Assembly (NCBI GenBank): GCA_910574455.1
Contig: CAJSYZ010000003.1
Span: 2,170,001-2,234,000, forward strand
Direction: 5' to 3'
Source: Trichaptum fuscoviolaceum
Lineage: Eukaryota > Basidiomycota > Agaricomycetes > Hymenochaetales > Trichaptaceae
DNA: 64,000 nucleotides
Position numbers and translations under genes: made by a program. Under the pieces are notes generated by a model, which was not told where the DNA came from, searched no databases, and was given only the letters and a program-made list of their open reading frames with translations. Below are positions 7,190-39,400 of this stretch, piece by piece. Within the stretch, counting starts at the first letter, position 1. The number at the start of each line of letters is the position of its first letter.

Positions 7190-7765
7190 TGTTACGACCT
7201 AGAGTGGTTCCTTCGCTTTCGAGACCCTGAATCGGACACTGACGACGATCGGACGCAATGAGCGGTGGTTCTCACTCTGAGAAGCACTTTACAAGTCAAT
7301 TAAGCTATTCTACACATCAGAGCTAAAGATAAACACATCACCTGAGAAGCACTTTACAAGAGGCCAAAAGTGGAGTGCTTCGCAGGGGGATCCGCGGTTT
7401 TGATGAACAAAGGTAAAAACTATACAGTACCAAGCCACTGGACCCTGATCCGACTAGGTCCGACCTATACCGCTGACGTAAGTCGGAGTTCGGGGTCCCG
7501 CTCTAGTCGGGGTCCCGCATTGGTAGAGCGGAGGTTTGAGTCGGAGTGGCGGAAGAAAGAAAGAAAAGAGAATTGTTTGCAGGGCGCTTGTCCTAGCGGC
7601 CTGCAAACATACAGGCAAGTAATCTACGCAAAAAGGAAGAGAATCGGAGTCAAGAATAGTCCGGTTTCGGACCGGACATGTCGGGGATCCGACTCGGAGT
7701 GTGATCGTAAAAGAAAATAAAAGAAAAATAAAAGAAATAAAATAACCTGAGGCGGATTCCTGACA
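7190..7765 (-). repeat. 3' LTR of the outer element
   Basis: This is the 576-bp partner of 22653-23228. In element orientation it is preceded by a purine-rich tract at 7766-7778. Confidence 0.95.
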
Positions 7766-7778
7766 TTATCCCCCTCCA
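7766..7778 (-). other. polypurine tract of the outer element
   Basis: On the minus strand the sequence GGAGGGGGATAA directly precedes the 3' LTR. That is the expected place and composition for the plus-strand DNA primer of an LTR retrotransposon. Confidence 0.7.
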
Positions 7779-7807
7779 AGGGCGCTCCTAAAGAGCGCGC
7801 GCGTTCG

Positions 7808-10116
7808 TTAGCGAATGGCGTCGGGGTACCGACGATAGAACTTTCGGATAACGGCGGGGGCATGCTCCATGTCCGCGGCATCGATCCATTGGTCTTCCTC
7901 GGGTCCATAGCCTTTCCAGCGAACCAAATACTGCAGAGTCCGACCTCGACCGCTTCGGCGCGAATTAAGGACTTCGGATACTTCGTATTCAATGTCGCCG
8001 TCGACGTTTACGGGCTCTGGCGGTGTCTGGACGCGACCAGGAATGGTGTCCGGTGTATACTTCGTGAGAAGCGACACATGGAACACTGGGTGAATCCGCA
8101 TAGTCGCAGGCAGCTGAAGCTCGTAATTCAAGAGTCCGATCTTGCGCAAAACCGTGTAGGGTCCGAGTCTCCGCGGATTCAGCTTGCGCGTGCCCGGTAT
8201 TGCGATATTCCGTGCGTCGAGCCATACCTTGTCTCCTGGTCGGATGTCCGGCGTGTCTGCATGTCCCTGGTCGTAGTACCGCTTCATCCGCTCCGCTGCG
8301 ACTTCGAGGGCCGCGCGAGCGTCCCCTCCTGAGCCTTCTGAAGCAGGTCGAGTCGGTCATCCGCAGCTGGAACCGTCGAAAGTCCGGCACTCGGTACAAT
8401 AGTGAACTCGGGGTCGTATCATACAGCAGTGCGAAGGGAGACACCTTGGTAGCGGAGTGCGCTCGCGTGTTGTGCGCAAACTCCGCCATGGGCAGTAACT
8501 CCGACCAATTTTCCTGTCGGACGTCAGTGAACGCGCGGAGATACTGTTCCAACTCCTGGTTCACCCGCTCGGTCTGACCGTCCGTTTGCGGGTGGAAGGA
8601 TGTCGACGTTGCGCCCTCAATACCGAGTCGGTGGAGTACCGCCTTCATAAACCGGGACACGAACTGTGTACCCCGGTCCGAAATGACTTTGCGCGGCGTG
8701 CCATGGTGTTTCCAGACTTCGGACACAAACAAGTCGGCCGTCCGCGCGGAGTCAATGTCTGAGGTCGTCGGTATGAAGTGTGCCTGCTTGGTGAGTCGGT
8801 CTACAACCACAAAGATGGCGTCGTATTCGCCAGACTGCGGCAGCTGTGTGATGAAGTCGCACGAAATGACCTGCCACGGTCCGTCTGGTACTTCATTGGG
8901 CTGAAGCGGACCAACCGGACGTTGCGGGATGTTCTTCGTCCGCATACAAGTGTCACAGCCCGACACGTACCGCTCGACGAAGGTAGACATACCAGGCCAC
9001 CAGTAGTTCCGACTCACCAGCTCGTAGGTCTTCCAACGACCCGGATGTCCGACCGGAAGCGAATCGTGGTGTAACTTGACGATATCGCGGCGGATCTCCT
9101 CGTCCTTCGGCACATAGACCTTACCCCGGTACAGCAGCAGCCCATCCTCCGTGTTCCACTCCTCCAGATCGTTCGCCAGCGCGCGCGGAGCCCCTTCCTT
9201 CACTTTCTCAATCGCCTCGACCAATTCCTCGTCAAACCTCTCGGACTCCCGAATCCTTCGCAACAACTCCGTATCCCCCTCTGCCCGGACCATCCCTCGT
9301 CGCATCGCCAACGTATAGAAGCGGTTCGTGTCCAGCAGGACCTTGTTCGTATTGTCCGGTCCGTCAGGACGAAGATCTTCGCGCCTGGACAAGGCATCCG
9401 GCTTTCCACCAAGTCGGCCGGGGCGGTGACGGATCAGAAAGTCAAAACGGCTAAGGAACAAGCTCCAGCGGGCCTGGCGTCTCGTAAGGTTTCGGGCTTC
9501 CGCAAAGAAGAGCAGGTTGCGGTGGTCCGACACAATATCAATTTTGTGCGGACTTCCTTCGAGATAGTGCCGCCACTCGTCCAAGGCTCGGACTATGGCT
9601 AACAGCTCCTTGTCGTGGATCTCGTAGTTCCTTTCTGCATCACCCAGGGACTTCGAATAGTAGGCCACTGGGTGGATGTCACCATCTGTTCCGATCTGCG
9701 AAAGTACCGCTCCGGTCGCAAAGTCCGAAGCATCACATTCGAGGATGAAGGGTTTCTCGAGGTCGGGCATCGCGAGGACCGGTGCCTCAGCAAACTTCTT
9801 CTTCAGACCATCGAAGGACTCTTGCTGGCGGGTAGTCCAGCGCCACTGGACATCCTTCCGCAACAATTCGGTCATGGGAACCGCCAGCTTCGAGAAGTCC
9901 TTGATAAAACGTCGGTAGAAGTTTGCAAACCCCAAGAAAGCCTGAATGTCCTTCACCTTCGCCGGAGTCGGCCAGTCGGCCACCGCTTCGACCTTCTTCG
10001 GATCCATCGAGATAATTCCAGAGCCAATGATCATGCCCAAGTACTCGATGGAGTCCTTGTGGAACTCGCACTTTTCGGGCTTACAGAACAGGTCATACTT
10101 TTCCAAACGTCGGAGT
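7808..10116 (-). pseudogene. pol: Pol of the outer element, C-terminal part (rest of RT, RNase H, integrase, chromodomain), frameshifted
   Basis: It resumes the RT thumb (CKPEKCEFHKDSIEYLG). RNase H follows (LECDASDFATGAVL, YEIHDKELLAIVRAL), then the integrase zinc finger (HHDSLPVGHPG...CDTCMRTK), the core D,D-35-E region (ISDRGTQF, HPQTDGQTERVNQELE), a GPY-type module (GPYTVLRKIG) and a chromodomain (LQYLVRWKGYGPEEDQW) ending at 7808. Near 8405 and again near 8325 the frame shifts by -1. Each shift is explained by one G missing from a G run. The chromodomain is therefore out of frame with the integrase. These could be real mutations or homopolymer sequencing errors. Confidence 0.85.
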
Positions 10117-10583
10117 TGTTACGTTTTCTTACTATGTCAGCGGCCCCCATTACTCCGAACCCTTCGCCCTATTTGTTTCTATTCTTGTTCTGCTCAGTCA
10201 TCCTCCGATGTAACCCTCAACCCTCAGCCAATCCCGATGTTACACATGTACCCTTTGCCCTAACCCTTTGCCCATCGCTCTCACACTATTATTAGTAGCC
10301 TATCGTCTACTCTCTTATTGTTCTCTTCTTACTCATCTTCCGATGTACCCTTGCTCCGCAGCTACAGTATATAAACCCCTGTACTTAGCATGATCGAACT
10401 CTAAGTTCGATCTCCTTTGTCAAACCCCCCGTCTCTAGTCTCTGCTATACATCTGTTTTTCTCTACTCTACATCGTAGGCCTTTGTCCATACAACACTTA
10501 GTGTCGAGCCCTAGCTCCGCTATCACTGAGCAACTTAACGTTGCGTTCCCCAACTATACGAGACCGTAAGTTGAGACGTAACA
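10117..10583 (+). repeat. 5' LTR of the inner element
   Basis: This 467-bp LTR starts TG and ends CA. A TATA box (TATATAA, 10368-10374) lies 35 bp upstream of the proposed self-primer AAGTTCGATCT (10403-10413), consistent with RNA starting at or near the primer. GATCGAACT-CTA-AGTTCGATC (10392-10412) is a perfect 9-bp stem with a 3-nt loop. Confidence 0.95.
10368..10374 (+). promoter_or_regulatory. TATA box in the inner 5' LTR
   Basis: TATATAA within a C/T-rich promoter-like LTR segment. The expected start of transcription 25-35 nt downstream coincides with the 11-nt self-primer at 10403. Confidence 0.65.
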
Positions 10584-11177
10584 ATTAGATCGAACTTATC
10601 TACCGTCGAAGACATCCGTCTTTACGACTCAGTGTTGAGCCTCGCTCCACATACTACTAACCAGTTGTAAACCCATCTAGTCCAGAAGAACATCCGCTCG
10701 AGGTAATCCCTTCAGTGTAGCAAGGTGCTCATCGATTGCAAGAGGGAGGCCAAGGAAAACTTCGAGAGTCGCGATCCGAAGATTAAGAAAACCGCTCCAG
10801 CTCATTGGTTGATTAAACCCCGGACAGTAGCGTTACAAAGGAACCAACTTCTGTCATACCAAACGGGACCGTAGCTGTGCACACAGGAAGAGGACTCAGT
10901 ACCTGCAAAGAAGGCATAAAGCTGCTAGCCTAGTCTTTGGGACACCTATTGGACAACGAGCATAACTCGCAGACGTGCCGCTTGGTAATAGCGAAGGGAG
11001 ACCGATCCAGAAATCGAAGGGAGACCGATCCAGAAATCGAAGAACAGTTCATCTGTTAACATTGAACAAAGCATCACAAACACTGCCCCACCGTCGATCA
11101 TCTCATAACGTTATCGCTTGACGACCCTCAAGACTAAACAAAGGTCAAACAGAAAACCACTTCACTTTACGTCATAA
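10584..11177 (+). other. proximal non-coding leader of the inner element
   Basis: No long open frame is present. It contains a 23-bp perfect tandem duplication (GAAGGGAGACCGATCCAGAA plus ATC) at 10993-11015 and 11016-11038. Packaging or translation signals would be expected here, but I cannot identify any. Confidence 0.6.
10587..10597 (+). other. putative self-priming primer-binding site, inner element
   Basis: AGATCGAACTT lies 3 nt after the 5' LTR. It is the exact reverse complement of AAGTTCGATCT at 10403-10413 in the LTR, near the predicted 5' end of the RNA. No tRNA-type TGG start is present at the LTR edge. This is the Tf1-like arrangement. Confidence 0.75.
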
Positions 11178-11636
11178 CATCTATCCATCACGGCACCCTC
11201 TATCCCACAAAACGCTTTGCTCCTTACCCACACCGACACCAACCACCTCGACAACGCAGGAAGACACATATACCAAGTCCAATACTCTGTAGCCAACTGT
11301 TATCAATTTGACACATACAGTTTCACCAAGTACTGTGACGATACAGTTTGGTCCATCACAAAAACTGCTAGTCTAATTGTCCAACCCGACTCTATCTTCT
11401 TCATCTACCACACCAACCCCAACGCATTCTTCTATCTAGAAGAGTTTCTTCCTGATCGAATCCGACTAGTTCATATCTGTGGAGACGATTGCCGACTTCT
11501 ACGCATACACTACACACTACCACAATCGTGGCGGACACCCTATCACTTCCAGCCCTTGACGATCCCATCTACTCAACCAGAGACCTCATCCGAAACCGAT
11601 TCCTCGCTTTTGCCGAAGAATTCGACGACATCCTAA
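11178..11636 (+). CDS. leader ORF A of the inner element, no ATG, unknown
   Basis: The frame is open for about 152 codons, from after TAA 11175 to the stop at 11634-11636. The translation has a mixed, protein-like composition with aromatic and hydrophobic residues but matches no family I know. There is no ATG, so any translation would need a near-cognate start (for example TTG 11217), splicing or frameshifting. It overlaps ORF B by about 180 nt; ORF B lies in the -1 frame. It could be a decayed gene kept open by chance in C-rich, G-poor sequence, though the length argues against chance alone. Confidence 0.4.
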   Translation, partial: HLSITAPSIPQNALLLTHTDTNHLDNAGRHIYQVQYSVANCYQFDTYSFTKYCDDTVWSITKTASLIVQPDSIFFIYHTNPNAFFYLEEFLPDRIRLVHICGDDCRLLRIHYTLPQSWRTPYHFQPLTIPSTQPETSSETDSSLLPKNSTTS

Positions 11637-12097
11637 ACCAAATCAGAACTATACTCAACGACCGGTATTACAATTACACCCAAACAGTTGGATACCTGCA
11701 GTACTCACGCGACAACCACCAACCTTGGATCTTCAAATACGGACTCCTCTGGAACCATACCCGATTATTCATCCCTCGAGAAACTCACCTACGCCGATTC
11801 TTCATAAACTACATCCATTTTGACAATCACGGAGAACAACTTCATCGCACTGAAGCTGAAACTGTTCGCTTTGTAAACCGACACTTCTGTTGGAATAGTA
11901 TCAGCGAAGACGTCAACCACTACATCTATCAGTGTAGTTGTCAACACCACCAACCCACTCCGCAAAACATAGTTCACAACTATCTTGCACCACCGATTGA
12001 CCCCCCGGAAGATTCACCCCACATTGCTAGTGTTACGGACTACACCCTTACAAACTACGATTCAGACAGTTACGGATATCAATCCGGAACCGATTAA
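11456..12097 (+). CDS. leader ORF B: divergent integrase-type HHCC zinc-binding domain upstream of gag
   Basis: The frame is open for about 213 codons with no ATG. The middle aligns with the integrase N-terminal module: GLL...RLFIPRETHLRRFF resembles the usual GLLYYRGRLYVP...LRREIL segment. Next comes H-x8-H (HFDNHGEQLH, about 11815-11845), then TEAETVRFV...CW...SEDVNHYI and CSCQ. The spacing between the His and Cys pairs is as in the family. The Cys pair is C-x-C here rather than C-x2-C. The element's own pol carries a normal copy, so this is a second, diverged one. No catalytic core follows. Whether it is translated is unknown because no ATG is available. Confidence 0.6.
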   Translation, partial: SNPTSSYLWRRLPTSTHTLHTTTIVADTLSLPALDDPIYSTRDLIRNRFLAFAEEFDDILNQIRTILNDRYYNYTQTVGYLQYSRDNHQPWIFKYGLLWNHTRLFIPRETHLRRFFINYIHFDNHGEQLHRTEAETVRFVNRHFCWNSISEDVNHYIYQCSCQHHQPTPQNIVHNYLAPPIDPPEDSPHIASVTDYTLTNYDSDSYGYQSGTD

Positions 12098-12966
12098 TCA
12101 CCACGGCGAACAAAGGCAAACAGACGGCTCGAAACACAGCCTCATCTACTACAACGGGCAAAACCAACAAAGAAACCACTTCGAAAACCACTGAAGAACC
12201 AATACCTACACAGACTACTGTTCCTCAGTATCCAGACGCTCCACCACCACACAATCGACTCTTCTTTGACACCGAAAAGAACTTCTTCTACTATAGGATT
12301 GGTAACAAAACTTATCGATCGTGGTCATACAATCAACTACTACAACGGTGGACCCCAATCGAAGCCAACTCTGCTGAAGAAGCTCGACAAAACTTCATCA
12401 CTCATACCCCCAACTGGGAAGACCTTGCTCGTCGAAGTCTAGCAGGAGAGTTCAAACACATTCAACCCCCACTACCACCGTTCCCAACCACTCTTATCTT
12501 CAACGAAGAAACACAATACTTCCATCTTCCCGACGCCAACGGAGAACCTACCGAAACCCCTTGGATCTACAACCCAACTGCTGATTCTTGGGTAGTAGCT
12601 CATACACTCGGCCCAGAACTACGAGAAATATACGAAGGTCACACTCCAAATTGGAAAGAGCTTAGAGAAGAGTACTACCGCCGACACCCCGACCTACTAC
12701 CACAACCACCACAAGAACCCCAACCAACTTCCACTTCCGACCCTCAACCCAGCAACTCCCATCGATCTCGTTCAAACTCACCCACTCACGGATCTCTTGA
12801 TCAAAACCTCTTCAGACGATCCTCCAGACGATCCTCTCAATCAGGCAGCTCCATTGCTCCAGAAACTCCTACTCCCTCACGTCAAGCATCCATACTTCCC
12901 CCTATCCCACCGAAACCATATCTCTCTTACACCCGCCCTCACATCGAACCTCTATCCATCAGTACT
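12037..12966 (+). CDS. open N-terminal extension in frame with Gag, no ATG
   Basis: The gag frame stays open for about 310 codons upstream of the gag ATG, starting after TAG near 12034. The translation contains two related modules. The first runs from about 12258 (LFFDTEKNFFYY...) to HTPNWEDLARR; the second runs from about 12490 (LIFNEETQYF...) to HTPNWKELREE. A Ser/Pro-rich linker into Gag follows. This looks like conserved protein sequence with an internal duplication. With no ATG, it could be made only by frameshifting from ORF B (61-nt overlap, -1) or from a non-AUG start. Gag may otherwise start at 12967. Confidence 0.5.
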
Positions 12967-14355
12967 ATGGCCACCCAAACTATCACGGAAACTACCCGCT
13001 CAATGTTCCGACCCCCACCTGGAGAAGAAAGTATCAGTACCTTTTTCCACTTAAGACATCTCCAAGGTCGAGGCAGAGGAGGCAGAGGAGGCAGAGGAGG
13101 CCGACAAAATCCTGCATGGAGAGGATGGGGATTTGGTGAACCACCCGCAGGAGATGAAGGAGGAGGAGGAGGAGAAGGACCCCCCGGAGGAGACCCGAAC
13201 AACAATGGAGGAGGAGGAGACGATGGAGGAGGAGGAGGAGGAGGAGGCGGAGGAGCTGGAGGTGGAGGAGCAGCAGACAATAACAATCAAGGAGATGGAC
13301 CCGCACACGATCGGCCTATAACCATGGCCAAAATCCAACCTTTCGACGGAACCCAAGAAGATGCTGATCGCTTTTTACTCCAAGTCCAAATCCATCTACG
13401 AGCCAACCGACACATCTATGACACAGATGAGCTATGCATCGAATTTGTGCTTGCCCATTGCAGTCTTCGCGGATCCCGACCCTTTGCAATGCAATACATG
13501 GCCAGCGGACGTTTTGAAACCGACACATTTGAAGAATTCCTGGCGGAATTCCACCGCACTTTCATCACATCCGAACTCACAATCAAGGCTACCATGGAAC
13601 TCGCCAAGCTCAAACAGCGAGGATCTATTGAAGACTACATTCTCAAATTCAAAACACTCATCATGCAAGCTCGTATCACAGAATACCTTTCCCAACGCAA
13701 TGCATTCTGGATGGGACTCAATGACAACCTTCGAATGAAACTACTTGCATGTAGTCCACAGCCTACCAACATGGAAGATTGGTTTTCGCTTGCCACTCGA
13801 CTGGACACCAATTACAAGATAGCTCGTTCAATGGAATCCCAACCCCACCAAACCTATTCCGGAGAGAACCGCTTCAAACGACGACCTATGCGACAATACA
13901 ATCGTCAAATTCGCGCCATTGCAAATGACACAAACGACACAGATGAATCAATGCCTTCCAATGACAACGATGATATAGAAGAGTTGGTCGACCTAGCCAT
14001 CTACAGCTTCTTTATATCACGACTTTCAACAGAAGAATTCCAACGTCATATGAAGGAAAACCTTTGCTTCAATTGTCATCAACCCGGACATCGCACTGCC
14101 AAATGTCCCAAACCTCATCCCAAACGTACCTCAAAAACTCGATGGCCCAACTCCCGCACACCAAGGTCCAAAAATATGCGCCAATTAACTTCAGCCGATG
14201 ATCAAAATGAATACTCTGAACCCGAGAACGAAGACCAAGATCAAGGCGAACTCTCAGCCGAAGATCGTGCCGCACAGATTCAACAACTCCTTATTGGCCT
14301 TGATGATGACGCAGTCAACCAAGTCTTCGATCGAGTTGAAGAAGGAAATTTTTGA
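12967..14355 (+). CDS. gag: Gag of the inner element
   Basis: A 462-residue Gag, which builds the particle and binds RNA. An RGG-type region (GRGRGGRGGRGGR) and a long Gly-rich tract encoded by GGAGGA repeats lead into a retrotransposon Gag core (IQPFDGTQEDADRFLLQVQ, KLKQRGSIEDYILKF). A CCHC knuckle CFNCHQPGHRTAKC and an acidic tail follow. The start at 12967 is the first ATG downstream of the proposed transcription start, more than 2.5 kb away. The stop TGA (14353-14355) directly follows the slippery heptamer AAATTTT. Confidence 0.95.
   Translation: MATQTITETTRSMFRPPPGEESISTFFHLRHLQGRGRGGRGGRGGRQNPAWRGWGFGEPPAGDEGGGGGEGPPGGDPNNNGGGGDDGGGGGGGGGGAGGGGAADNNNQGDGPAHDRPITMAKIQPFDGTQEDADRFLLQVQIHLRANRHIYDTDELCIEFVLAHCSLRGSRPFAMQYMASGRFETDTFEEFLAEFHRTFITSELTIKATMELAKLKQRGSIEDYILKFKTLIMQARITEYLSQRNAFWMGLNDNLRMKLLACSPQPTNMEDWFSLATRLDTNYKIARSMESQPHQTYSGENRFKRRPMRQYNRQIRAIANDTNDTDESMPSNDNDDIEELVDLAIYSFFISRLSTEEFQRHMKENLCFNCHQPGHRTAKCPKPHPKRTSKTRWPNSRTPRSKNMRQLTSADDQNEYSEPENEDQDQGELSAEDRAAQIQQLLIGLDDDAVNQVFDRVEEGNF
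14346..14352 (+). promoter_or_regulatory. -1 frameshift site AAATTTT between gag and pol, inner element
   Basis: Gag codons read GGA AAT TTT TGA; A AAT TTT is a canonical X XXY YYZ heptamer with the stop codon immediately after. A -1 slip leads to TTG AAC AAC, the pol frame that opens at 14352. Confidence 0.75.
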
Positions 14356-17300
14356 ACAACGAAGAGCTCCCGCAGCCCTCTCTCTCGTTGAACATCAGGC
14401 TGCTCATCAATTCAATCAACGACAATCACGCCTTACGAATCCCAATCACGTTCCTATATAACCAGAAAACCCACAAAGCCACCGCCTTACTCGACACCGG
14501 AGCAGAAGGTCTATTCATTGACAAAACACTTGTAGAAAATCTCCAGATCAAAACTATCAAACTGCGACAATCACTTCGACCACGCAATGTTGACGGGACA
14601 TTCAACAATGCCGGACACATCACATCCTATGCCCCCCTTCGTGTCAAACTCGGAAATGCCCACTATGCTATGCGATTCTATGTTACCACCCTTGGAAAAG
14701 AGAACTTCATTTTTGGACTACCATGGTTCAAGAAATATCAACCCAAAATCGACTGGGAAACTGGATCAATACAGCTCAATCGCGTTAATATCTCAACACA
14801 ACTTGCGCAACAAGCTCGAAAAGGACTCCAACCCGCTAAACCACTCACTGCCTTGGTACCCCATCAATACCACCAATTCCTATCCCTTTTTGACGAAGAA
14901 AAAGCACATCGCTTTCCTCCAAGTCGCCCATATGACCATGCAATTGATCTCAAACCTGACTTCATTCCTAAACGACATTCACCTTATCCACTCTCACTTC
15001 CGCAACAAGCTGCTCTCGATGCCTTCATCGATGAGAACCTCAAGAATGGATATATCAGACCTTCGAAGTCACCTATGGCATCCCCTCTCTTCTTCGTTGA
15101 CAAGAAAGACGGTACCTTACGACCTGTTCAAGATTACCGTTACCTCAACAATGGAACCATCAAGAATGCGTACCCATTACCACTTGTCCAGGATCTATTA
15201 GACAAGTTACATGGATCTCACTACTTCATCGCCCTAGATATCCGATGGGGATACAATAATATCCGCATCAAGGATGGAGATCAATGGAAAGCCGCATTTA
15301 CCACTCAACGAGGACTTTTCGAACCAACAGTTATGTTTTTTGGCCTATGCAACTCACCTGCCACCTTTCAACACTTTATGAATGATATTCTTGGCGAAGA
15401 AATCCTTCTAAATCATCTCTTGGTTTACATGGACGACATCCTCATACATGCCCCAACCTTACCGGAACTCATTTCTCGAGCACGACGTGCCTTCACTATC
15501 CTTGAAAAGAATGACCTCTACTTCAAGCCCACCAAATGCTTTTTCCATACGCAGAAACTACCCTATCTTGGACTCATTATTACACCTAATCACATCCAAA
15601 CCGACCCAACAAAAATCGAAGGAATCACTAAATGGCCAACTCCGACTACTGTCAAAGATATCCGTTCATTCACTGGATTCACCAACTTCTACCGCCGTTT
15701 TATTCCACACTACGCCGAGATCACCAAACCCTTGGACAACCTCAAACGCAAAGATCAACCTTTCAAATGGACTGAAGTAGAACAAAAATCATTCGATGAT
15801 CTCAAGGCCGCGTTCACTCAACATCCGTTACTTCTTATGCCCAATCCGCACAATCCCTTCTTCCTCGAAACTGACGCTTCCAAAGTTGCAACCGGAGCAG
15901 TCCTTCGACAACATGATGACAACGGTGTTCTCAAGCCAATCGGTTATATTTCGCAATCACTAAACTCCGCTGAACGGAACTACGAGATCTATGATCGCGA
16001 ACTATTAGCTATTATCCGTGCCCTCATCACTTGGAAACACTATCTCCTTGGATCCCCACACCCTGTTACACTTTGGTGTGATCATCGCAACCTTACCTAC
16101 TGGCGAGAGGCCCGACGACTCTCACCCCGTCAAGCACGATGGCATCTGTTGCTCTCACAATTCGACCTTCATATCACACATGTCCCCGGCAAACAAATGA
16201 TTCAATCCGATCTTCTATCCCGCCGGGCGGACCATGTTAAACAGGGGGAGAATCTCAACGAATCATCGATTATGCTTCCGAAGGACCTATTCATTTCCAC
16301 TCTTCAGGAACAGAAGGATCAAGAAAATTCTGAAGACGAAGAAGAAGAGGAAGACTATGAATCCGATGACGACCTCCCAGACACAGATAGCCTCACAAAA
16401 TCCATCAAAGAATCGATGAAGAAAGATGAATTCCTCACCAACACCATTGCCCAGCTAAAGAAGAAACTACCACCTGCCCGAACTGCCCTCAAAGACTGGT
16501 TTTTCGATGATGACGGCATCCTTTACTTCAAAAATCGCATCTATATCCCGGACAACCTTGAATTAAAGCGCACTATTCTCCGACTTCACCATGATATACC
16601 AGTTCGAGCACACCCTGGCATATTTAACACCCTGGAACAGGTCCGAAGGACGTATTACTGGCCCAGGATGCAGAAGTTTGTATCCGACTATGTCCATGGA
16701 TGCGCACTATGTCAACAAATGAAAGTCAATCACCATCCGACCGCTCCACCACTAATGCCTATCGCCGCCGACAAACACTTCTTTCCATTCTCCCACGTCA
16801 ATATGGACTTCATCACCGATTTACCAATGTCACATGGCTATGACACACTTCTATTAGTCATTGATCACGATTGCTCCAAAGCTATTGTCCTCATTCCATG
16901 CGAGAAGACAGTAGACGCAATTGAAACGGCACAACTATACTTCGACAATGTATATCGACGATTTGGACTTCCGATACGCATTATATCCGACAGAGGACCC
17001 CAATTCGCTTCTAAAGCATTCCAAGAACTCTGCAAGATCATAGGAATCAAGTCCTCTATGTCCACCGCTTACCACCCTCAAACCGATGGACAAGCCGAAC
17101 GGACCAATCAAGAGATCGAAGTATACCTCCGGATCTATTGTACTGCGGAACCTGAGAACTGGTCTAGACACATTCCCAACATTGAATTCGCCCATAACAA
17201 TCGTGCCCACGCTGTCACCAAGAGAACCCCTTTCTCGCTTCTCATGGGATACGACCCCATTCCACTACCCCTGAAATATCCGAAATCAAACGTCCCATCC

Positions 17301-17840
17301 GTATCACAACGACTTGCCAACCTCACAGTACATCGATCAGAAGCCTTAGCAGCCCATTCAGTCGCTGCTATGGTAATGAAAGAACGCACTTTCCGAAACT
17401 TCAAACCATTCAACAAAGGAGACAAAGTTTGGCTAGACTCAAAGAACCTTCGAATTCCCGGTTTATCGCAAAAGTTCAAGGAAAAACGCGATGGTCCCTT
17501 CAAGATCAAGAAAGTCTTATCTCCACTCGTCTATGAATTAGATCTCTCACGGACTAAATGGAAGATACACCCAGTATTCCACGCTGCGCTTCTCGTGAGA
17601 TACACTGAGACGGAAGCATATGGACCACCCCACAGTAACCCCCCACCTGATCTAATCGAAGGACAAGAACAATTCGAAGTAGAAGCCATCCGAGCCCACC
17701 ATGGGAATGGCACCAGGCGACAATATCTTATAAAATGGAAAGGTTACCCCACTTCTGGAAACTCATGGGAACCCGAGTCACATCTTCGGAACGCACAGAC
17801 CATCCTCAAAGCCTATAAAAGACTCCATCATCTCACTTGA
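14352..17840 (+). CDS. pol: Pol polyprotein of the inner element with chromodomain
   Basis: 1162 residues, intact, entered by -1 frameshifting. Domains in order: aspartic protease (LLDTGAEGLFI, catalytic DTG at 48-50); reverse transcriptase with YMDD at 359-362; RNase H (LETDASKVATGAVL, YEIYDRELLAIIRAL); integrase zinc finger (HHDIPVRAHPG...CALCQQMKV, about 745-785); integrase core (MDFITDLP near 818, IISDRGPQF, HPQTDGQAERTNQEIE); a GPF module (GPFKIKKVLS); and a C-terminal chromodomain (YLIKWKGYPTSGNSWEPE). The chromodomain places it in the chromovirus group, whose members steer integration towards modified histones. All catalytic motifs are present, which fits the recent insertion. The ORF ends TGA followed at once by ATG of the next ORF. 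Confidence 0.97.
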   Translation: MNNEELPQPSLSLNIRLLINSINDNHALRIPITFLYNQKTHKATALLDTGAEGLFIDKTLVENLQIKTIKLRQSLRPRNVDGTFNNAGHITSYAPLRVKLGNAHYAMRFYVTTLGKENFIFGLPWFKKYQPKIDWETGSIQLNRVNISTQLAQQARKGLQPAKPLTALVPHQYHQFLSLFDEEKAHRFPPSRPYDHAIDLKPDFIPKRHSPYPLSLPQQAALDAFIDENLKNGYIRPSKSPMASPLFFVDKKDGTLRPVQDYRYLNNGTIKNAYPLPLVQDLLDKLHGSHYFIALDIRWGYNNIRIKDGDQWKAAFTTQRGLFEPTVMFFGLCNSPATFQHFMNDILGEEILLNHLLVYMDDILIHAPTLPELISRARRAFTILEKNDLYFKPTKCFFHTQKLPYLGLIITPNHIQTDPTKIEGITKWPTPTTVKDIRSFTGFTNFYRRFIPHYAEITKPLDNLKRKDQPFKWTEVEQKSFDDLKAAFTQHPLLLMPNPHNPFFLETDASKVATGAVLRQHDDNGVLKPIGYISQSLNSAERNYEIYDRELLAIIRALITWKHYLLGSPHPVTLWCDHRNLTYWREARRLSPRQARWHLLLSQFDLHITHVPGKQMIQSDLLSRRADHVKQGENLNESSIMLPKDLFISTLQEQKDQENSEDEEEEEDYESDDDLPDTDSLTKSIKESMKKDEFLTNTIAQLKKKLPPARTALKDWFFDDDGILYFKNRIYIPDNLELKRTILRLHHDIPVRAHPGIFNTLEQVRRTYYWPRMQKFVSDYVHGCALCQQMKVNHHPTAPPLMPIAADKHFFPFSHVNMDFITDLPMSHGYDTLLLVIDHDCSKAIVLIPCEKTVDAIETAQLYFDNVYRRFGLPIRIISDRGPQFASKAFQELCKIIGIKSSMSTAYHPQTDGQAERTNQEIEVYLRIYCTAEPENWSRHIPNIEFAHNNRAHAVTKRTPFSLLMGYDPIPLPLKYPKSNVPSVSQRLANLTVHRSEALAAHSVAAMVMKERTFRNFKPFNKGDKVWLDSKNLRIPGLSQKFKEKRDGPFKIKKVLSPLVYELDLSRTKWKIHPVFHAALLVRYTETEAYGPPHSNPPPDLIEGQEQFEVEAIRAHHGNGTRRQYLIKWKGYPTSGNSWEPESHLRNAQTILKAYKRLHHLT

Positions 17841-18329
17841 ATGTCCCCATCCAAAAAACTCGTTCACTTCTCATATCCCCACTCATCTAACATCATAAAC
17901 GACTATACGCTCTCCCCATCGAACAAACAGCCACCAACACCTGAACCCCATACTGTCGCATTACCGACTACCTCGATTCCAACTCGCCCCCATTACCTGG
18001 ACGCTGTCCGACCTGTATACTCCGGAGCTTGGTCCAAAGACCACTACGACCCAGACTGGGAGTACAAGTACTTCAAACCCCCCACCGGACTTGGACTCCA
18101 CATCCCAACAATCTCGGTATTTCTCATCCACACCTTCTTTAACAACCCTGATTACGCCCACCGACTCATTGACTATTTCAACAAATCTGCTCGTGTTCAA
18201 CCCCCACTCACAATCACTCGACCCATTGTCCGACATCGTCATCACTTCAGCCACTTTGAACCTCGCCGCTCTGACCCCTATTGCACCTGCAGTTGTTGTC
18301 ACTACGACTGTCCGACTCATTCCCTCTAA
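17841..18329 (+). CDS. post-pol ORF D of the inner element, unknown
   Basis: 162 codons in the same frame as pol. The ATG directly follows the pol stop (TGAATG). The product is Pro- and His-rich with an aromatic middle (DPDWEYKYFKPP) and a Cys-rich tail (YCTCSCCHYDCPTHSL) that could bind metal. I recognise no family. The stop TAA (18327-18329) is followed by 3 nt and then ATG of ORF E. I see no other ATG between 17843 and 18333, so the arrangement suits termination-reinitiation. Confidence 0.55.
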   Translation: MSPSKKLVHFSYPHSSNIINDYTLSPSNKQPPTPEPHTVALPTTSIPTRPHYLDAVRPVYSGAWSKDHYDPDWEYKYFKPPTGLGLHIPTISVFLIHTFFNNPDYAHRLIDYFNKSARVQPPLTITRPIVRHRHHFSHFEPRRSDPYCTCSCCHYDCPTHSL

Positions 18330-18332
18330 GTC

Positions 18333-19181
18333 ATGCCACCTGCCCGTTCCCAACGCAACCCATCCCGTCACACCCCCTTATTTCGTTCATACACATCATC
18401 TCTCCAACCACCAGCCTTACGCCTCGACACCCACAACCCCTTGCAATCCCGCCAGATCCTTGAATTATTCTCAACTCGCACCTTCCACCAACGCCTAAGT
18501 CAATCAACGTATGATAACACTCCTCTTCTTGCCAACTGGACCCAATGTTATGATATTGTTACCCGAAACCAGGAGATTCTCGATCCTACCATTGCCATCA
18601 TCGAAGGATCTCTCCATCTCTTGCGACGGGCTCAAGAGTCATTCCAAGACATGCGACGATTTGCCCTTACGGAACTCCTTGAAACAGCGCCTCAAGAGCT
18701 ATTTGCCCCATTGGTCATTGACCTCACCACGGAGGACGACATCATCGACCTCACTAAAGACCTTGCTGACCAAGTACCTCGCCCACCCCTTCACTCCGTC
18801 GGCACTCAAGTCCCAGAACGCAAAGAACTCATCAATCGCCTGTCCGAACCCATTCGTCTACAATCGCCAATACAGTTACAAGAAGACCAAGAGTATCGTG
18901 TCAACACAGCCCCACCCTCACCCACATACAGCCCGAAAGTTGACAACAATCCTTTTACGTCTATGTCCTTGGACCCCAAGGAATGCACACAACACTCTGC
19001 TGTCGACCACCACTACAACCTGGCCGCGTCCACCTGCGAATTCTATACATGTTCATACTGCAACATACGTGCACCTGGACACACCATCATTGGATCCCCA
19101 AGTATACATGCCCCTCATGTGGACAACACGATGGTCATGACGATGAATGCGCATCTAACCGAATTGCTCAACAACGCGTAA
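18333..19181 (+). CDS. post-pol ORF E of the inner element, unknown
   Basis: 282 codons, again in the pol frame. The middle is helical and acidic (VIDLTTEDDIIDLTKDL) and the end is cysteine-rich (CEFYTCSYCNIRAPGH). Just past that, the -1 frame continues with a better zinc-cluster-like segment (YTCPSCGQHDGHDDEC) up to 19210. Either a one-base deletion has altered the C-terminus, or the protein really ends as annotated. I recognise no family. Confidence 0.5.
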   Translation: MPPARSQRNPSRHTPLFRSYTSSLQPPALRLDTHNPLQSRQILELFSTRTFHQRLSQSTYDNTPLLANWTQCYDIVTRNQEILDPTIAIIEGSLHLLRRAQESFQDMRRFALTELLETAPQELFAPLVIDLTTEDDIIDLTKDLADQVPRPPLHSVGTQVPERKELINRLSEPIRLQSPIQLQEDQEYRVNTAPPSPTYSPKVDNNPFTSMSLDPKECTQHSAVDHHYNLAASTCEFYTCSYCNIRAPGHTIIGSPSIHAPHVDNTMVMTMNAHLTELLNNA

Positions 19182-19358
19182 CGAAGAGAAACCCACCTGC
19201 AAACAACTAAAGCACCTGTTGCTAACCTGGATACCCTATTGGCGTTAACTTCGCTTATATGGCATGTTTTTCCTTATTGTCTATTGGACTTAATTTGTCC
19301 CTATAACGGCCATTTTCTTTACTGATTTCCACTACGTTTCAATTTAAGAACGGGGTAA

Positions 19359-19825
19359 TGTTACGTTTTCTTACTATGTCAGCGGCCCCCATTACTCCGA
19401 ACCCTTCGCCCTATTTGTTTCTATTCTTGTTCTGCTCAGTCATCCTCCGATGTAACCCTCAACCCTCAGCCAATCCCGATGTTACACATGTACCCTTTGC
19501 CCTAACCCTTTGCCCATCGCTCTCACACTATTATTAGTAGCCTATCGTCTACTCTCTTATTGTTCTCTTCTTACTCATCTTCCGATGTACCCTTGCTCCG
19601 CAGCTACAGTATATAAACCCCTGTACTTAGCATGATCGAACTCTAAGTTCGATCTCCTTTGTCAAACCCCCCGTCTCTAGTCTCTGCTATACATCTGTTT
19701 TTCTCTACTCTACATCGTAGGCCTTTGTCCATACAACACTTAGTGTCGAGCCCTAGCTCCGCTATCACTGAGCAACTTAACGTTGCGTTCCCCAACTATA
19801 CGAGACCGTAAGTTGAGACGTAACA
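19359..19825 (+). repeat. 3' LTR of the inner element
   Basis: This 467-bp copy appears identical to the 5' LTR. It is preceded by the purine-rich AAGAACGGGGTAA (19346-19358), the likely polypurine tract. Confidence 0.95.
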
Positions 19826-21326
19826 GGAGTACCTCCTTAACGTGTTCCTCGTGCTCCGACTCGTTCTCCGAAAATATGCAGATGTCATCGAGGTAGATAA
19901 TGACAATAACATCCAGCATGTCCTTGAAGAGCTCGTTCATCATCCGCTGAAACGTAGCGGGTGCGTTCGTAAGTCCGAAAGTCATAACGGTCGGTTCGAA
20001 GTGGCCCTCCTGAGTCCGAAAAGCGGCCTTCCACTCGTCACCTTCCTTGATGCGGATATTGTTGTATCCGGCCCGCAAGTCGAGCTTCGTGAAAACGCGG
20101 GCCTTCTTCAAGGAATCGATGAGTTCTGTGGTCAGGGGAAGCGGGTACCGATTTTTGACGGTGATTTCATTGAGTTTTCGGTAGTCGACGACCATCCGAA
20201 GCGATCCGTCCTTCTTCTTGATAAAGAAGACCGGAGCAGCGGCGGGGGACTTCGACGGACGGATGTAGCCCTTGCGGAGGTTCTCCTCAATGAACTCCTT
20301 CAAGGCTGCACGTTCCGCCGGTGCCATCGGATAGATCTTGCTGTACGAAGGTGTCGATCCGGGCTCCAGGTCGATTGCATGGTCAAACGGCTTCCTTTCG
20401 GGCAACCGTTCGGCCTCTGACTTCGAAAACACCTTCGCAAACTCGCGGTACTGCGGGGGGACCATCTCCTCGAAGGACTTGTCACCCTCCTTCACTGCCG
20501 ACTTCTCCGCAATCGCCTGCGACCAGGTATACGAGGCCGCAACTTTATGCACAAAGTCCGGATCGTCCGCCACATAGAACTGCTCCGCATCATGGTAGAT
20601 GTCCATGTACTTTTCGGAGTACCGAAATCCGGGGGGAATCTTCGCAAGGTCGTCAGACTCAATGTCCGACTCGTCTGAATCATCACCGACTTCCGCAACG
20701 CAGACTCTCGCATGGGGCTGCGGTCGTGGTCGCATCTGTCGACTGTTCTTGCATCGCGCGGTCCGCAACTTGCGAACGGCGCGGGGTAGCGGTTGTCCGA
20801 CTTCTACGACTCTTGCCGCTTCGACAGGGCGGCATTCGTTCGGACACCGCGTGAAGCTGATGGTCTCGTCGTTCCAATCAATCTCGGGGTTATGGTGGTG
20901 TAGCCAATCTATCCCAATAATCAACGGATAGTCTCCGATGTTTGCCACTGTGGCATCGACTTCTTCTTTGTGTCCACCGATCTCCAGAGTAAGTCGGACT
21001 TGGTCTGTAATCGGACCACTCTGGTTCAGTGAATCGTCGGCGTTGTACACCTTGATCGGTCGGTCGAGAGGACGAGTACGTAGTCCGAACTTCTGCACCA
21101 ACTTCTGGTTGATAATCACCGAAAATGCACCGCAGTCTAGCAGCGCTCTCATGCTCAAAATCTTTCGGCCGTCACTTATTCTCACTGGGACATGGATGAA
21201 TCGACGCAAACTCTTGTGTATTAGCGAAGTACGATTGTACACAGAGGGATCGGACACATCATCATCTAACAGCGAAAATCGGTTCGGGGTCTTGGGCGGA
21301 ACGACCGCGCGCCTAGACCCACTCAA
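19826..21326 (-). CDS. pol: Pol of the outer element, N-terminal part (protease and start of reverse transcriptase)
   Basis: This part is entered by -1 frameshifting from gag. It has an aspartic protease with the motif LLDCGAF (DCG rather than the usual DTG or DSG). Reverse transcriptase follows, with the conserved VDYRKLNEITVKNRYPLP and the catalytic box YLDD, then VKEVLL, where the inner LTR starts. The reading frame resumes at 10116 on the other side of the nested element. Joining across one GGAGT copy restores an uninterrupted frame, so pol was open here before the second insertion. Confidence 0.9.
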
Positions 21327-22588
21327 AAACCCTGACTCTTGAGAGCAGCAGCGACCGCTTTGGCGATCTCGTCAACGGTCGGAGTGCGAGCGGCATTCAC
21401 GGTCGGAGTCTCGTCGCGGACTTCCTCGAGGGTCGCCGTCGGTGTCTTGGGAGCGGCGGCGGGCGGAGCGGTGGACGACGAGGTGGCGGTCTGTGAAGCC
21501 ACCTTCGATCGGACATTTGATTTCTTGCTCCGCTGCGGACAGTCTCGAGCCAGATGTCCATGCTCACCGCACTGGAAGCAAAGTCCGCGGCGCATCATCT
21601 CCTCAGTGCTCAAGCGATCGATGTCCATCGCGTCGGGGTCCCGAGTCGGTCCGCGCGAAGCGGAGTGGTGTGTCTGCGAGCGGGAGCCCCAGTTCGGACT
21701 CCAGTTGTTCTGCTTGAAGCCAGTCCGACGTGCACGCAAGTCCTCATCGTATTCGCAAAGCAGTCGGACCCACTGGTCGAAGCTCTTCGTCTCCCGGATC
21801 TCCTTGCTCGCCAGATCGTAGCGGAACTGACTGCTGAGTCCGGTCTCGAACACCAACATCTTCCCTTCCATCCCCCAGTCCACTTCCGACTCCACCAGCA
21901 ACGCACGAAACTTCGCCGCATACTCCGACACCGTGTCCTTGCCCTGGCGCAGTTTCATAAGCTCCTGTCCGGCGTGGCGTTTGATGTTCGGACGTCCGAA
22001 CGCGGACTGGAGGGACGCCAGGAAGAGTTCCAAATCGGTCATGAGAGCGGGGACTTCGGTGCCCTCGAGGGCGGCGGTCGTGTGCGGACGAGCCCATTGT
22101 TCAGCGGGCCCGCGGAGTAGCGAAGCTGCCCATAGACAGGCCATCGTCGGACTGCCTACAAACTCCTGGGGGCGCATCCGGACATAAAGTCGGACCTTCT
22201 GCGACCACTCCTCAAAGCTGATACTCTCCGCCTCCTTATCTTTCGGCGTACGCCCATAGAACGCGGGCGGGGCACCGACCTTCGGACCCTTGGGAGTGCG
22301 GGTCGCGCCTTCCTGCGCATTTCGGACAAACAGGTTCATGAAGTCGTGGAGGCGCTGATTTTCGGCGGTCACCTCCTGCAGGTGTGACTGGAGAGGTCGG
22401 GTGGCATCATTGATAGCCTGGAGGACGTCTGGGGGGAGGTCTCCGCTCTGCTGGGGCGGCGGTGCGGCCTGTGGGGGAGCAGCACCCGGAGTCGGAGTCG
22501 GAGCAGCGCCTGGCGCGGGCGCTGCTTGCGCGGGGTTGATCGGGTCGGTCATATCTTCGTCGGAGTCTTCTTGTCCGAATCTTCCCAT
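21323..22588 (-). CDS. gag: Gag of the outer element
   Basis: This 421-residue structural protein forms the particle and binds element RNA. After a Pro/Ala-rich leader it has a retrotransposon Gag core (around SFEEWSQKVRLYVRMRP and LRQGKDTVSEYAAKFRALL) and a CCHC zinc knuckle CFQCGEHGHLARDC. A low-complexity tail follows. The frame is intact. It ends TGA at 21323-21325, directly after a -1 slippery heptamer. The ATG is the first after the 64-nt leader downstream of the LTR. Confidence 0.95.
   Translation of the reverse strand: MGRFGQEDSDEDMTDPINPAQAAPAPGAAPTPTPGAAPPQAAPPPQQSGDLPPDVLQAINDATRPLQSHLQEVTAENQRLHDFMNLFVRNAQEGATRTPKGPKVGAPPAFYGRTPKDKEAESISFEEWSQKVRLYVRMRPQEFVGSPTMACLWAASLLRGPAEQWARPHTTAALEGTEVPALMTDLELFLASLQSAFGRPNIKRHAGQELMKLRQGKDTVSEYAAKFRALLVESEVDWGMEGKMLVFETGLSSQFRYDLASKEIRETKSFDQWVRLLCEYDEDLRARRTGFKQNNWSPNWGSRSQTHHSASRGPTRDPDAMDIDRLSTEEMMRRGLCFQCGEHGHLARDCPQRSKKSNVRSKVASQTATSSSTAPPAAAPKTPTATLEEVRDETPTVNAARTPTVDEIAKAVAAALKSQGF
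21326..21332 (-). promoter_or_regulatory. -1 frameshift site GGGTTTT between gag and pol, outer element
   Basis: In the gag frame the codons read CAG GGT TTT TGA, so G GGT TTT is a perfect X XXY YYZ heptamer with the stop codon next. Slipping back one base continues into TTG AGT GGG, which is the pol frame. Confidence 0.7.
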
Positions 22589-22639
22589 TCAGAGGGATCA
22601 AAAATCGGTCGGTGCAATCGCAGGGCGTCGAAAGAACAA

Positions 22640-22650
22640 ACTTTTGGCCT
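22640..22650 (-). other. putative self-priming primer-binding site, outer element
   Basis: On the minus strand AGGCCAAAAGT lies 2 nt after the 5' LTR. It is the exact reverse complement of ACTTTTGGCCT within that LTR (plus-strand coordinates 22824-22834). There is no TGG at the LTR edge as expected for tRNA priming. The layout matches Tf1, where the 5' end of the RNA folds back to prime reverse transcription. Confidence 0.65.
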
Positions 22651-22652
22651 AA

Positions 22653-23228
22653 TGTTACGACCTAGAGTGGTTCCTTCGCTTTCGAGACCCTGAATCGGAC
22701 ACTGACGACGATCGGACGCAATGAGCGGTGGTTCTCACTCTGAGAAGCACTTTACAAGTCAATTAAGCTATTCTACACATCAGAGCTAAAGATAAACACA
22801 TCACCTGAGAAGCACTTTACAAGAGGCCAAAAGTGGAGTGCTTCGCAGGGGGATCCGCGGTTTTGATGAACAAAGGTAAAAACTATACAGTACCAAGCCA
22901 CTGGACCCTGATCCGACTAGGTCCGACCTATACCGCTGACGTAAGTCGGAGTTCGGGGTCCCGCTCTAGTCGGGGTCCCGCATTGGTAGAGCGGAGGTTC
23001 GAGTCGGAGTGGCGGAAGAAAGAAAGAAAAGAGAATTGTTTGCAGGGCGCTTGTCCTAGCGGCCTGCAAACATACAGGCAAGTAATCTACGCAAAAAGGA
23101 AGAGAATCGGAGTCAAGAATAGTCCGGTTTCGGACCGGACATGTCGGGGATCCGACTCGGAGTGTGATCGTAAAAGAAAATAAAAGAAAAATAAAAGAAA
23201 TAAAATAACCTGAGGCGGATTCCTGACA
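22653..23228 (-). repeat. 5' LTR of the outer element
   Basis: This 576-bp LTR matches 7190-7765 except at one base. It contains a 19-bp direct repeat (CTGAGAAGCACTTTACAAG at 22740-22758 and 22805-22823). The second copy directly abuts the putative self-primer sequence at 22824-22834. In element orientation an AT-rich TATA-like motif lies about 50 nt upstream of the primer sequence, near 22885. Confidence 0.95.
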
Positions 23229-36422: not shown

Positions 36423-39400
36423 TTATTGTTGCCTACTTTCGTACAATGTTTCATGCATGTGCATGTCAGCAAATCGGTTAACATAGAATCTATTGTAAAA
36501 GTCCAGGGACTCCTCAGGTGTCAATGACTTCGGAGGACATTCATCACCCTCTGGAACCCCAAGGAGGTGAGCTAAACGGAAGATACTCCCTAGAGCTATC
36601 ACGGATAACTTTGGAGTTTTTGAGTCACCGTGACGGGGGTAGCCTGACTCCGAGTCGGAGGTGTCATTCAGGTCACTCCGGCGAGTCCGAGTCAGCGGTT
36701 GACGGCAACTTCCAATAGTACTACGCTGGCACGCGGTAGAGGTCTCTGACTCATACTCTGGCTCGACTATCCACATTCTTGTTTTTCTGTCAGGTGAGTC
36801 TCCAACGTTCTTGAAAAACTGGACAAGGGCGCATTCCTGACGTTCTCCATTGGCGGTGAAGGAGAAAAGAAGCATAACCCGAGCAATTCGCATCCCTGCA
36901 AACCCCTTTTTGCGAGAACTAACTTGGACAAGAACGACATCACGTCGTGGTTTTCCGCGCCAAGAGGGATTGGACCTGATCACCTCCCTCATTGCTTGCT
37001 CTATAGGAATTGATTCGCCGCGGTAGGCGAAATACGCGGTAGCTGAATGGAAGATGGCAATGTCATTGCCCATGTCCAGTGCAAACTGTTGTTCGGCTAT
37101 CAGGCTTTCAGAAGCGCTTCCGAGGTCATAGTATCCTAATTCGTTCAAGTTGCACCTTTCGTACTTGCAGAATAAGTATATTTTGATGAGTCGTCGGAGC
37201 TGTCGGAGTTCCGGATGGCCTTTTATCGCCGCAAGAGCGTTGAGCTGTTTGGGGTACAGCTTACTGGACTCTGTAAGGATAGCAACGAATAAGTCAGATA
37301 TCCAGCGCCACAATTTGAAGCTCGTGTTACTGACGTTGTTTCGAAGCCATTAACATCAAGCTCGAAGGATCACTTCTACCACCTAAGCAAAACCGATGTT
37401 CTGTATTTTCCACATCATGAAGAACAACACTACTTTGCAGTCCTTCCACTGATGAAGTGCTGAAATCATCCAGGTCAGCAATTTCGTTGTGCCCTTGATT
37501 ACCCACAGTGCCATCGAAGAAATCATCTGTATCATTGGCTGCTCCTGCCACACCAATACACTGCAACTGCTCCCTCTGATTCGGGATCCTCTCAGCATCA
37601 TCCTCCTCCGGCTCTGACATATTCTTCCGCAGAACATCTCGCAAAACTTTCCACGTAGCCTCGGATAGCGTATCGTCTAGCATTCCACGCCGTTTGAAGT
37701 CTGACCTCGATGCAATAAGTTTGCTGAGTCGTTGGTTTGCTGTGATCATCTGGCCCAAGGGATCATTTCTGTTCGAGCGTCGCCACGTTTCTTTGACCGC
37801 ATAAATATGTTTATTCTCTGTAATCGATGAACACAGCCCGCTCGGTGCAGCAAACAGAGGGATCAATGTTGGATAATGGACCATAGCATGCTGTCGTGGT
37901 AGTGAAAAGTTATCCCGGATGCCCTTAGCTATGAATATTTGCCGATAACGGTGAAAGTGATCCAAAGAGGCTTTGATTTGATCAAGAGTTGAGGCTGTAA
38001 TCGTGTACCGACGCACAAGGTAACAGAAGTCTAGAAATGCACTTAATGTGCGAATCATATCATCGTGTGCAATGCCCACGATAGCCGGAAGATACACCTA
38101 AGCAAATTGCATCAAATATCAGCAAACCACTGCCTCGAACAAGATAAAAAGGTCACATACTTTCATAAGTGCCTTAGAATCATTGCCTGTCCATTGCTTG
38201 AAGCCTCGGCCTTCGGGGAATCTGCGAAGTCCAGGAAAAGGAGCAGCAACTCTGATTCTACGCGGATGTTAGCAATGGTATTTACATTAAACAACTTGCG
38301 AAAAAAATCACCTTTTATCCACAATATCCAGCTCTGACGTGGTCAAGCTCTGACATATCCACTCGACAAGATGATCCTTGAACACGCCTTTGATGATTTG
38401 GTGCAGCAGGTCCGGAGATATGAGATCGCATATATCTGCGCGTGGAATGTCATTGGTGAAAGGCTACGGAGCAACGTATCAGTTGCAATATACGCATCCA
38501 ATGAATAATTTGAAGCACGTACCACAATGTCCTGGTGGAATCCGTACTCTTTCCGAATTGTTGCTTTATTCATGTTGTTGGCGTCTACCTGTTCTATCAA
38601 TCGTTCGTGCAGCTCTTTTGTTCGAGGAATTGATACAAATTCCGGATTATCGAGGTCCTTGTGAGGCGCTGTGCATCTATAATGTCGAAAGTAAGTCATC
38701 ACCACAGAGCTTGATTTCAGGAAAGCCTGAGGGCGGTAGTACTTACTTGCAGCACCATCCAGTACATATGGCGCAAAGGCTGACCTGTTCCGGATAATCG
38801 GCTATATATGAGCCGAGTCCGAAAACCGACCTACGCAAGTGACCATCAGGGCACCGGAGAATGGTTTTCTGAGTGTTCATGATCATTGCGGATTTCAGCG
38901 AGATTAAGATCCTCGATATAGACGAATGAAAGATCTGATGTCGAAAGTGCCGGAAGTCATCTGACTTTTCGTATTGCCGCTCAGCTGCAAAGCATCAGAA
39001 GTCAATTGAATAGATCACTATTAACACATACTCTTTTGGTATTGCCAGAAATGCTATGAGCTGGACTGTATTCAGTTTCTGGGACCGCCGGGCCTTGTTT
39101 GATACATTCCCAATCGAGAGATACAAAGGATAGTATTCATTATTGCCAGTTCCAACAGAAACCGTTGTCTTATCGCTCCCTAAAATGACCGGGACGAACA
39201 TAGATCCATGGACTGCTTTATCTTCTGCGTAGATCTTGTTCTAAGTCAAGGATAATAAGTATCTGTGCGAGTTAATGAGTCATGACTTACAGCCTGTTCC
39301 CAAGCAAAATTCCCGGACATGTAATTTCTGAAAACTCGTTCTTTGTCATTGATATTATTGGTGTCCTCCTTTGTCTGAAATTCACGAAACGGGACAAAGT

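Follow-up and report, generated by a model that had tools for sequence, protein, structure and literature searches.

The 64,000-nucleotide (nt) stretch of Trichaptum fuscoviolaceum DNA analysed here (the window; assembly GCA_910574455.1, contig CAJSYZ010000003.1, positions 2,170,001 to 2,234,000 of the forward strand) carries a long terminal repeat (LTR) retrotransposon of about 9.7 kb. The order of its predicted domains (gag, then protease, reverse transcriptase, RNase H and integrase, with a chromodomain ending Pol) identifies it as a Ty3/gypsy chromovirus. Between the predicted 5′ end of its RNA and the gag start codon lies a long leader that has no plus-strand ATG in any frame and holds three long open reading frames (ORFs). 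The original prediction, made from the letters alone, had noticed both properties, and both were confirmed: the ATGs at 10390 and 12967 are consecutive on the plus strand, and the three frames are present. The features of this region are listed below; family A denotes the element of the window and its genomic copies.

10403..10413, + strand: predicted RNA 5′ end (start of R), the 11-mer AAGTTCGATCT, complementary to the primer-binding site; kept in 36 of 38 family A copies
10587..10597, + strand: primer-binding site AGATCGAACTT, self-priming type, just behind the LTR; kept in 33 of 38 family A copies
10403..12966, + strand: ATG-free leader, 2,564 nt, defined by ATG counts, shuffles and genomic copies
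10403..11189, + strand: non-coding part of the leader, ATG-free
11190..11636, + strand: ORF1, predicted ACG start in ATC-ACG-GCA
11528..12097, + strand: ORF2, predicted GTG start in ATC-GTG-GCG; integrase H2C2-like protein
12103..14355, + strand: ORF3-gag, with the ACG in ACC-ACG-GCG as predicted start and a frame that stays open past the gag ATG
12967..14355, + strand: gag, opening at ACT-ATG-GCC, where the predicted RNA has its first ATG; Pfam Retrotrans_gag above its cut-off, zf-CCHC below

The gap between the two flanking ATGs measures 2,577 nt, against 550 nt for the second-longest plus-strand ATG gap in the window. Dinucleotide shuffling of the leader, repeated 2,000 times, gave a mean of 19.6 ATGs (standard deviation 3.6, range 10–32), close to the twenty or more that had been estimated by eye. 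ATG is the sole trinucleotide with a count of zero in the leader, and CAT occurs 53 times. ATGs resume directly after the leader, as had been remarked, with 38 in the 1,389 nt of gag. The leader is poor in G (401 of 2,564 bases); at a similar G content (16%), pol has 73 ATGs in 3,485 nt.

We searched the genome (59.1 Mb in 12 contigs) and found at least 40 places with a family A leader (40 of 61 candidates were scored), of which the 39 besides the window were fetched. L038 and L044 were excluded because their 5′ part is unrelated DNA, and the comparison set comprised 38 copies, window included. Leader ATGs number zero in 27 of these, one in eight, two in two and five in one; the single leader ATG of L039 falls where that copy is cut off. 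The family thus does not carry the many leader ATGs that would have spoken against the original prediction. Eleven of the 12 ATG-making substitutions examined are CpG transitions (C to T or G to A), none is present in more than two copies, and the pairs of copies that share such a change differ by 37, 74 and 101 substitutions. These changes fit decay after insertion, and their CpG bias in L009–L047 suggests cytosine methylation of the elements.

A database protein, P0001, led to relatives of ORF2 upstream of gag in two further families of the same genome, B and C, which account for at least about 36 and at least 27, respectively, of the 150 rows scored. Eleven copies of B and nine of C were read. 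Measured from the 11-mer to the start of gag, the B leaders are 2,872–2,925 nt long, and 10 of 11 are ATG-free, the other having one ATG. The C leaders measure 2,713–2,761 nt (L060 and L067 apart), and five of nine are ATG-free; there is one ATG each in L059 and L066, there are two in L060, and there are twenty in L067, a copy without the 11-mers. Dinucleotide shuffles of B and C leaders gave about 21–23 ATGs (21.1 for L048 and 22.0 for L065) and never reached zero. The layout of an ATG-free leader with three frames followed by gag is common to A, B and C. Family A shares no leader 14-mer with B or C.

In all three families the limits of the tract match the predicted RNA 5′ end on one side and the gag start codon on the other. 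The 11 nt at the predicted 5′ end are complementary to the primer-binding site, as in Tf1/sushi-type self-priming, and the same complementarity is present, using another 11-mer, in B (11 of 11 copies) and C (eight of nine). The last ATG before this 5′ end lies 13 nt upstream in A and 9 nt upstream in both B and C, and the U3 regions of A, B and C contain 6, 10 and 5 ATGs, so the ATG-free tract spans the predicted RNA from its 5′ end to gag. The non-coding 5′ leader (745–787 nt) is ATG-free in the reference leaders of all three families, where 6.5–6.9 ATGs were expected, and its shuffles hit zero in 0, 1 and 1 per 1,000. Synonymous-codon shuffles of family A reached zero out-of-frame ATGs in 5 of 1,000 for ORF2 and 12 of 1,000 for ORF3, and no ORF2 or ORF3 of any family reached zero in more than 38 of 1,000. 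By the same measure, gag, pol and ORF5 of the element have a surplus of out-of-frame ATGs.

Across the 5′ 750–790 nt of the leader there is no consistent reading frame, and indels of 1 nt and 23 nt are freely taken. An exact 23-nt tandem duplication is present in this part of the window copy (10993–11038); one unit is deleted in 7 of the 37 other A copies, the place having been checked in three of the seven.

Selection on the three frames was assessed with omega, computed from variants found in at least two copies. For C, seven of nine copies were used (L060 and L067 were dropped), and ORF2 of B and C was counted from ten codons past its start. In A, non-synonymous and synonymous shared variants stand at 3:20 in ORF1 up to the start of ORF2 (omega 0.07), 9:23 in ORF2 (0.18) and 38:44 in ORF3 over 12103–12966 (0.35). 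The corresponding values are 5:6 (0.37), 0:6 (0.00) and 21:29 (0.26) in B, and 2:4 (0.19), 1:14 (0.03) and 137:97 (0.56) in C. In the remaining two frames omega exceeds 1 in all three families wherever the ratio is defined. In the A copies, each frameshifting indel within ORF1–3 is private to one copy, and the sole multi-copy indel there is 12 nt long (seven copies). The whole frame is open in 33 (ORF1), 37 (ORF2) and 25 (ORF3 extension) of 38 A copies, in 9, 11 and 10 of 11 B copies, and in 7, 7 and 5 of 7 C copies. Frame-specific purifying selection, together with protein similarity between the families, makes ORF1, ORF2 and ORF3 look like real genes, which bears out the earlier suggestion that protein-like frames impose a second constraint on the leader.

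Where ORF1 and ORF2 overlap in A (11528–11636), 8 of 10 variants fall at ORF2 third positions and one at an ORF1 third position; just upstream (11439–11527), 5 of 11 variants, and three of the four shared ones, are at ORF1 third positions. Although the numbers are small, the pattern agrees with a switch of frame where ORF2 is proposed to begin.

The predicted start codons are near-cognate and conserved. In A they are kept in 37 (ORF1), 38 (ORF2) and 37 (ORF3) of 38 copies, the exceptions being one ORF1 with ATG and one ORF3 with ACA in place of ACG; one ORF2 has GCA instead of GCG after its start codon. ORF2 and ORF3 of B open at CTG, in AATCTGGCG in 11 of 11 copies and in AAACTGGCG in 10 of 11, with AAGCTGGCG in the remaining one. 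Those of C also open at CTG: in all nine copies, ORF2 has AACCTGGC followed by A or G, and ORF3 has CTGGCA with a constant A at −3, behind a codon that varies between ACT, ATC and ATA. The motif of A at −3, ACG, CTG or GTG as the start codon and GC at +4 and +5 occurs three times in the leader of the window, twice in L048 and twice in L065, every time at the start of a leader ORF, and shuffle means are 0.8–1.05. A looser context (R at −3, G at +4, TTG allowed) gives 15, 10 and 10 sites in the three leaders, and it is therefore the strict context that carries the claim. In ORF1 of B and C, the CTG in AACCTGA is a candidate start.

The proteins of ORF1 in B and C are 37% identical. ORF1 has no recognized domain, and a protein-database search with it returned two candidates, none at an E-value of 0.001. 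ORF2, by its similarities, is akin to the H2C2 zinc domain of integrases, predicted here as a stand-alone protein. The Pfam model Integrase_H2C2 (PF17921, cut-off 25.5 bits) scores 33 on ORF2 of C, above the cut-off, and 20.3, 20.4 and 23.9 on ORF2 of A, ORF2 of B and P0001, below it. P0001 is 72–75% identical to ORF2 of A and begins at the residue aligned to its GTG. As gene callers also assign M to a GTG or TTG start, P0001 may itself begin at ATG or at one of these codons. P0001 is moreover 29% identical, over about 140 residues, to the Pol integrase regions of many of the genome's elements, among them the outer element of the window. A cysteine pair spaced CxC in the aligned ORF2 proteins is CxxC in the two Pol proteins of the window, which suggests that they share an origin and that zinc binding may have changed. 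Scans of viral contigs and genome contigs with ORF2 found no relative, and a structure model built from two sequences was too poor to be used (mean predicted local distance difference test score, pLDDT, of 39).

The reading frame of ORF3 extends Gag N-terminally by 288 residues, and its predicted product is an N-terminally extended Gag. It has the hallmarks of a glyco-Gag-like protein, namely a conserved in-frame codon predicted as a non-AUG start upstream of gag and no stop codon from 12103 to 14355. Part of the extension is kept in P0002, a gag of another source, which matches 49% of the first 300 ORF3-gag residues at 48% identity.

These observations lead us to propose that the leader is probably a linearly scanned polycistronic leader, in which some ribosomes would start leader proteins at non-AUG codons and the rest would reach the gag ATG. 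The absence of ATG from all frames, non-coding part included, and beyond what protein constraint explains for ORF2 and ORF3, is what linear scanning from cap to gag would require, and the ATG-free non-coding 5′ leader speaks for a leader scanned over its entire length. The reading first offered, that selection keeps the way to gag clear for scanning ribosomes, is supported accordingly by three families. The full-length unspliced RNA would be the message; 43S complexes would scan it from the cap, and ACG 11190, GTG 11528 and ACG 12103 would be used as starts. The product of ORF3 would be made beside ordinary Gag, and low initiation at near-cognate codons would keep the leader proteins scarce relative to Gag. 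In broader terms, we consider it reasonably probable that there is a clade of LTR retrotransposons in which a single unspliced gag-pol RNA serves to express three genes without AUG, with ribosomes scanning 2.6–2.9 kb and starting at ACG, GUG or CUG, one of the genes being a captured integrase zinc-domain gene and the last a long Gag.

Several observations weigh against this interpretation. The RNA 5′ end at 10403 is itself inferred. ATG-creating changes among the 38 A copies are not clearly rarer than expected (8 singletons against 9.3, 4 shared against 6.3), and avoidance is therefore visible only as fixed absence, not as purging among present copies. ORF1 taken alone is not significantly short of out-of-frame ATGs, with synonymous shuffles at zero in 250, 126 and 618 per 1,000 for A, B and C; its omega in B and C is based on few shared variants (11 and 6, respectively), its singletons in A look neutral (0.89), and in B and C it lacks the strict start motif. 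Stops or private frameshifts break ORF3 in 13 of 38 A copies. Stop-making variants comprise one singleton in ORF1 and six singletons plus two shared variants in ORF3 of A, two singletons in ORF1 of B, and two singletons plus four shared variants in ORF3 of C. The strict start motif was defined once the starts of A, B and C had been seen, so its specificity is partly post hoc. Families B and C are not fully independent of each other, since they have 68 leader 14-mers in common.

The leader ORFs could instead be translated from spliced or internally started RNAs, with gag expressed from an RNA beginning near gag. The donor-like word GTAAGT near the end of the 5′ LTR would suit this arrangement, and an extra message or reinitiation also seems necessary for ORF4 and ORF5 downstream of pol. 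However, such RNAs would tolerate leader ATGs, chiefly in the non-coding 5′ part, where the three reference leaders have none, and they could not give ORF1–3 an ATG, because the leader contains none; we regard this explanation as unlikely. It is quite improbable that a ribosome shunt or an internal ribosome entry site delivers ribosomes to gag while the ORFs use frameshifts. Plant pararetroviruses do shunt across long leaders, but in rice tungro bacilliform virus (RTBV) the shunt accompanies a short AUG-started upstream ORF (PMC5902531), and ATG is absent here. The original prediction had left non-AUG starts and frameshifts side by side as ways to translate the leader. Frameshifting would leave ORF1 startless and fits less well than non-AUG starts, since conserved near-cognate codons in strong context stand at the beginning of ORF2, ORF3 and, in A, ORF1. 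Splicing, an internal promoter and a shunt are all disfavoured, since each would leave room for ATGs.

We find it scarcely credible that low G content and the encoded proteins by themselves would have left the leader without ATG. The low G content, leader proteins without methionine and the unremarkable ATG count of ORF1 are in keeping with such an origin, but dinucleotide shuffles of full leaders never arrive at zero, synonymous shuffles of ORF2 and ORF3 seldom do, and the pol of the same element, with as little G, is full of ATGs.

The proposed scanning of the whole leader has parallels in known systems. In RTBV and badnaviruses, long ORFs without internal AUG stand before the polyprotein ORF, the first starting at a non-AUG codon (AUU in RTBV) and the remaining ribosomes scanning on; in RTBV, about 900 nt of leaky scanning follow a shunt over a leader containing upstream ORFs, and ORF II has an AUG (PMC5902531). 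Ahead of gag, the leaders of A, B and C likewise carry long ORFs that contain no internal AUG, whichever the frame. Counted from the predicted 5′ end, the tract here is 2.6–2.9 kb long, which is about three times the length in RTBV, and it has no AUG upstream of gag; its last frame runs into gag, and the element is an LTR retrotransposon, not a pararetrovirus. The Caulimoviridae are pararetroviruses without LTRs, and membership of the window element in that family was rejected on its 467-bp LTRs, target-site duplication and integrase.

In murine leukaemia virus (MLV), a CUG in a favourable context (accCUGg) reportedly starts an N-terminally extended Gag in the leader, and other gammaretroviruses generally lack AUG in the glyco-Gag leader region (PMC5778647); the MLV extension is given as 88 residues (PMC5120145). 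The extended Gag predicted here resembles glyco-Gag in its non-AUG leader start, with an extension of 288 residues against 88. We know of no separate genes further upstream of glyco-Gag in MLV. Pol of the window element has a chromodomain and an SH3_Tf2-1 domain, like the self-priming chromoviruses of the Tf1/sushi type; to our knowledge, Tf1 has no leader genes.

LTR elements with extra ORFs have been described, also upstream of gag-pol in plants (PMC7264820), the legend to a figure of fungal and spikemoss elements lists an ‘add. ORF’ (PMC2864245), and the caulimovirid petunia vein clearing virus has its integrase upstream of gag (PMC2774666). The passages concerned mention neither ATG avoidance nor non-AUG starts, and related terms looked for in an article on LTR retrotransposons in fungi (PMC3248453) were not found there. 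No report of an ATG-free polycistronic LTR-retrotransposon leader was found in the open-licence literature, judged by titles and the beginnings of abstracts. We know of no AUG-free scanning leader as long as the one proposed here, and the combination and length are likewise new to us. If the proposal is true, nature has preserved in these leaders a set of near-cognate start sites shaped by selection, on which the strength of non-AUG initiation becomes testable. With tens of copies in each of three families, evolution itself puts linear scanning across 2.5 kb and eukaryotic initiation at near-cognate codons to the test. They also represent an LTR element with leader genes, including a separate integrase-domain protein, that annotation reliant on ATG would overlook.

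The remaining features of the element are listed below.

10117..10583, + strand: 5′ LTR, 467 bp, an exact repeat identical to the 3′ LTR
14340..17840, + strand: pol, with protease, reverse transcriptase, RNase H, integrase (H2C2, rve), SH3_Tf2-1 and chromodomain by Pfam; its frame differs from that of gag
17841..18329, + strand: ORF4, its ATG abutting the pol stop TGA, without internal ATG
18333..19181, + strand: ORF5, an open frame opened by the next ATG after that of ORF4
19359..19825, + strand: 3′ LTR, 467 bp, an exact repeat identical to the 5′ LTR

The Pfam matches in Pol are in the expected order (Chromo at 1.6e-13), with all three protease models below their cut-offs, and the target-site duplication flanking the element reads GGAGT. 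ORF4 contains no internal ATG in any frame, and the next ATG, at 18333, starts ORF5 in all 12 copies read (the window and 11 of the 39 other copies). The same logic as in the leader may apply at ORF4 and ORF5, via another message or reinitiation. It should be noted that the ATG gap of ORF4 is unremarkable against synonymous shuffles, 91 of 1,000 of which hit zero. Two IDLT stretches occur in ORF5 (18330–19181), which we take to resemble SUMO-interacting motifs.

The element is nested in an outer Ty3 element on the minus strand (7190–22999), which has exactly matching LTR stretches of 347 bp and a gag ATG only 65 nt from its LTR. Elsewhere in the window, a minus-strand ORF at 37327–38097 without a Pfam match has a near copy 5′ of the family B copy in L050; it resembles a Plavaka-type transposase of the kind present in mushroom genomes.

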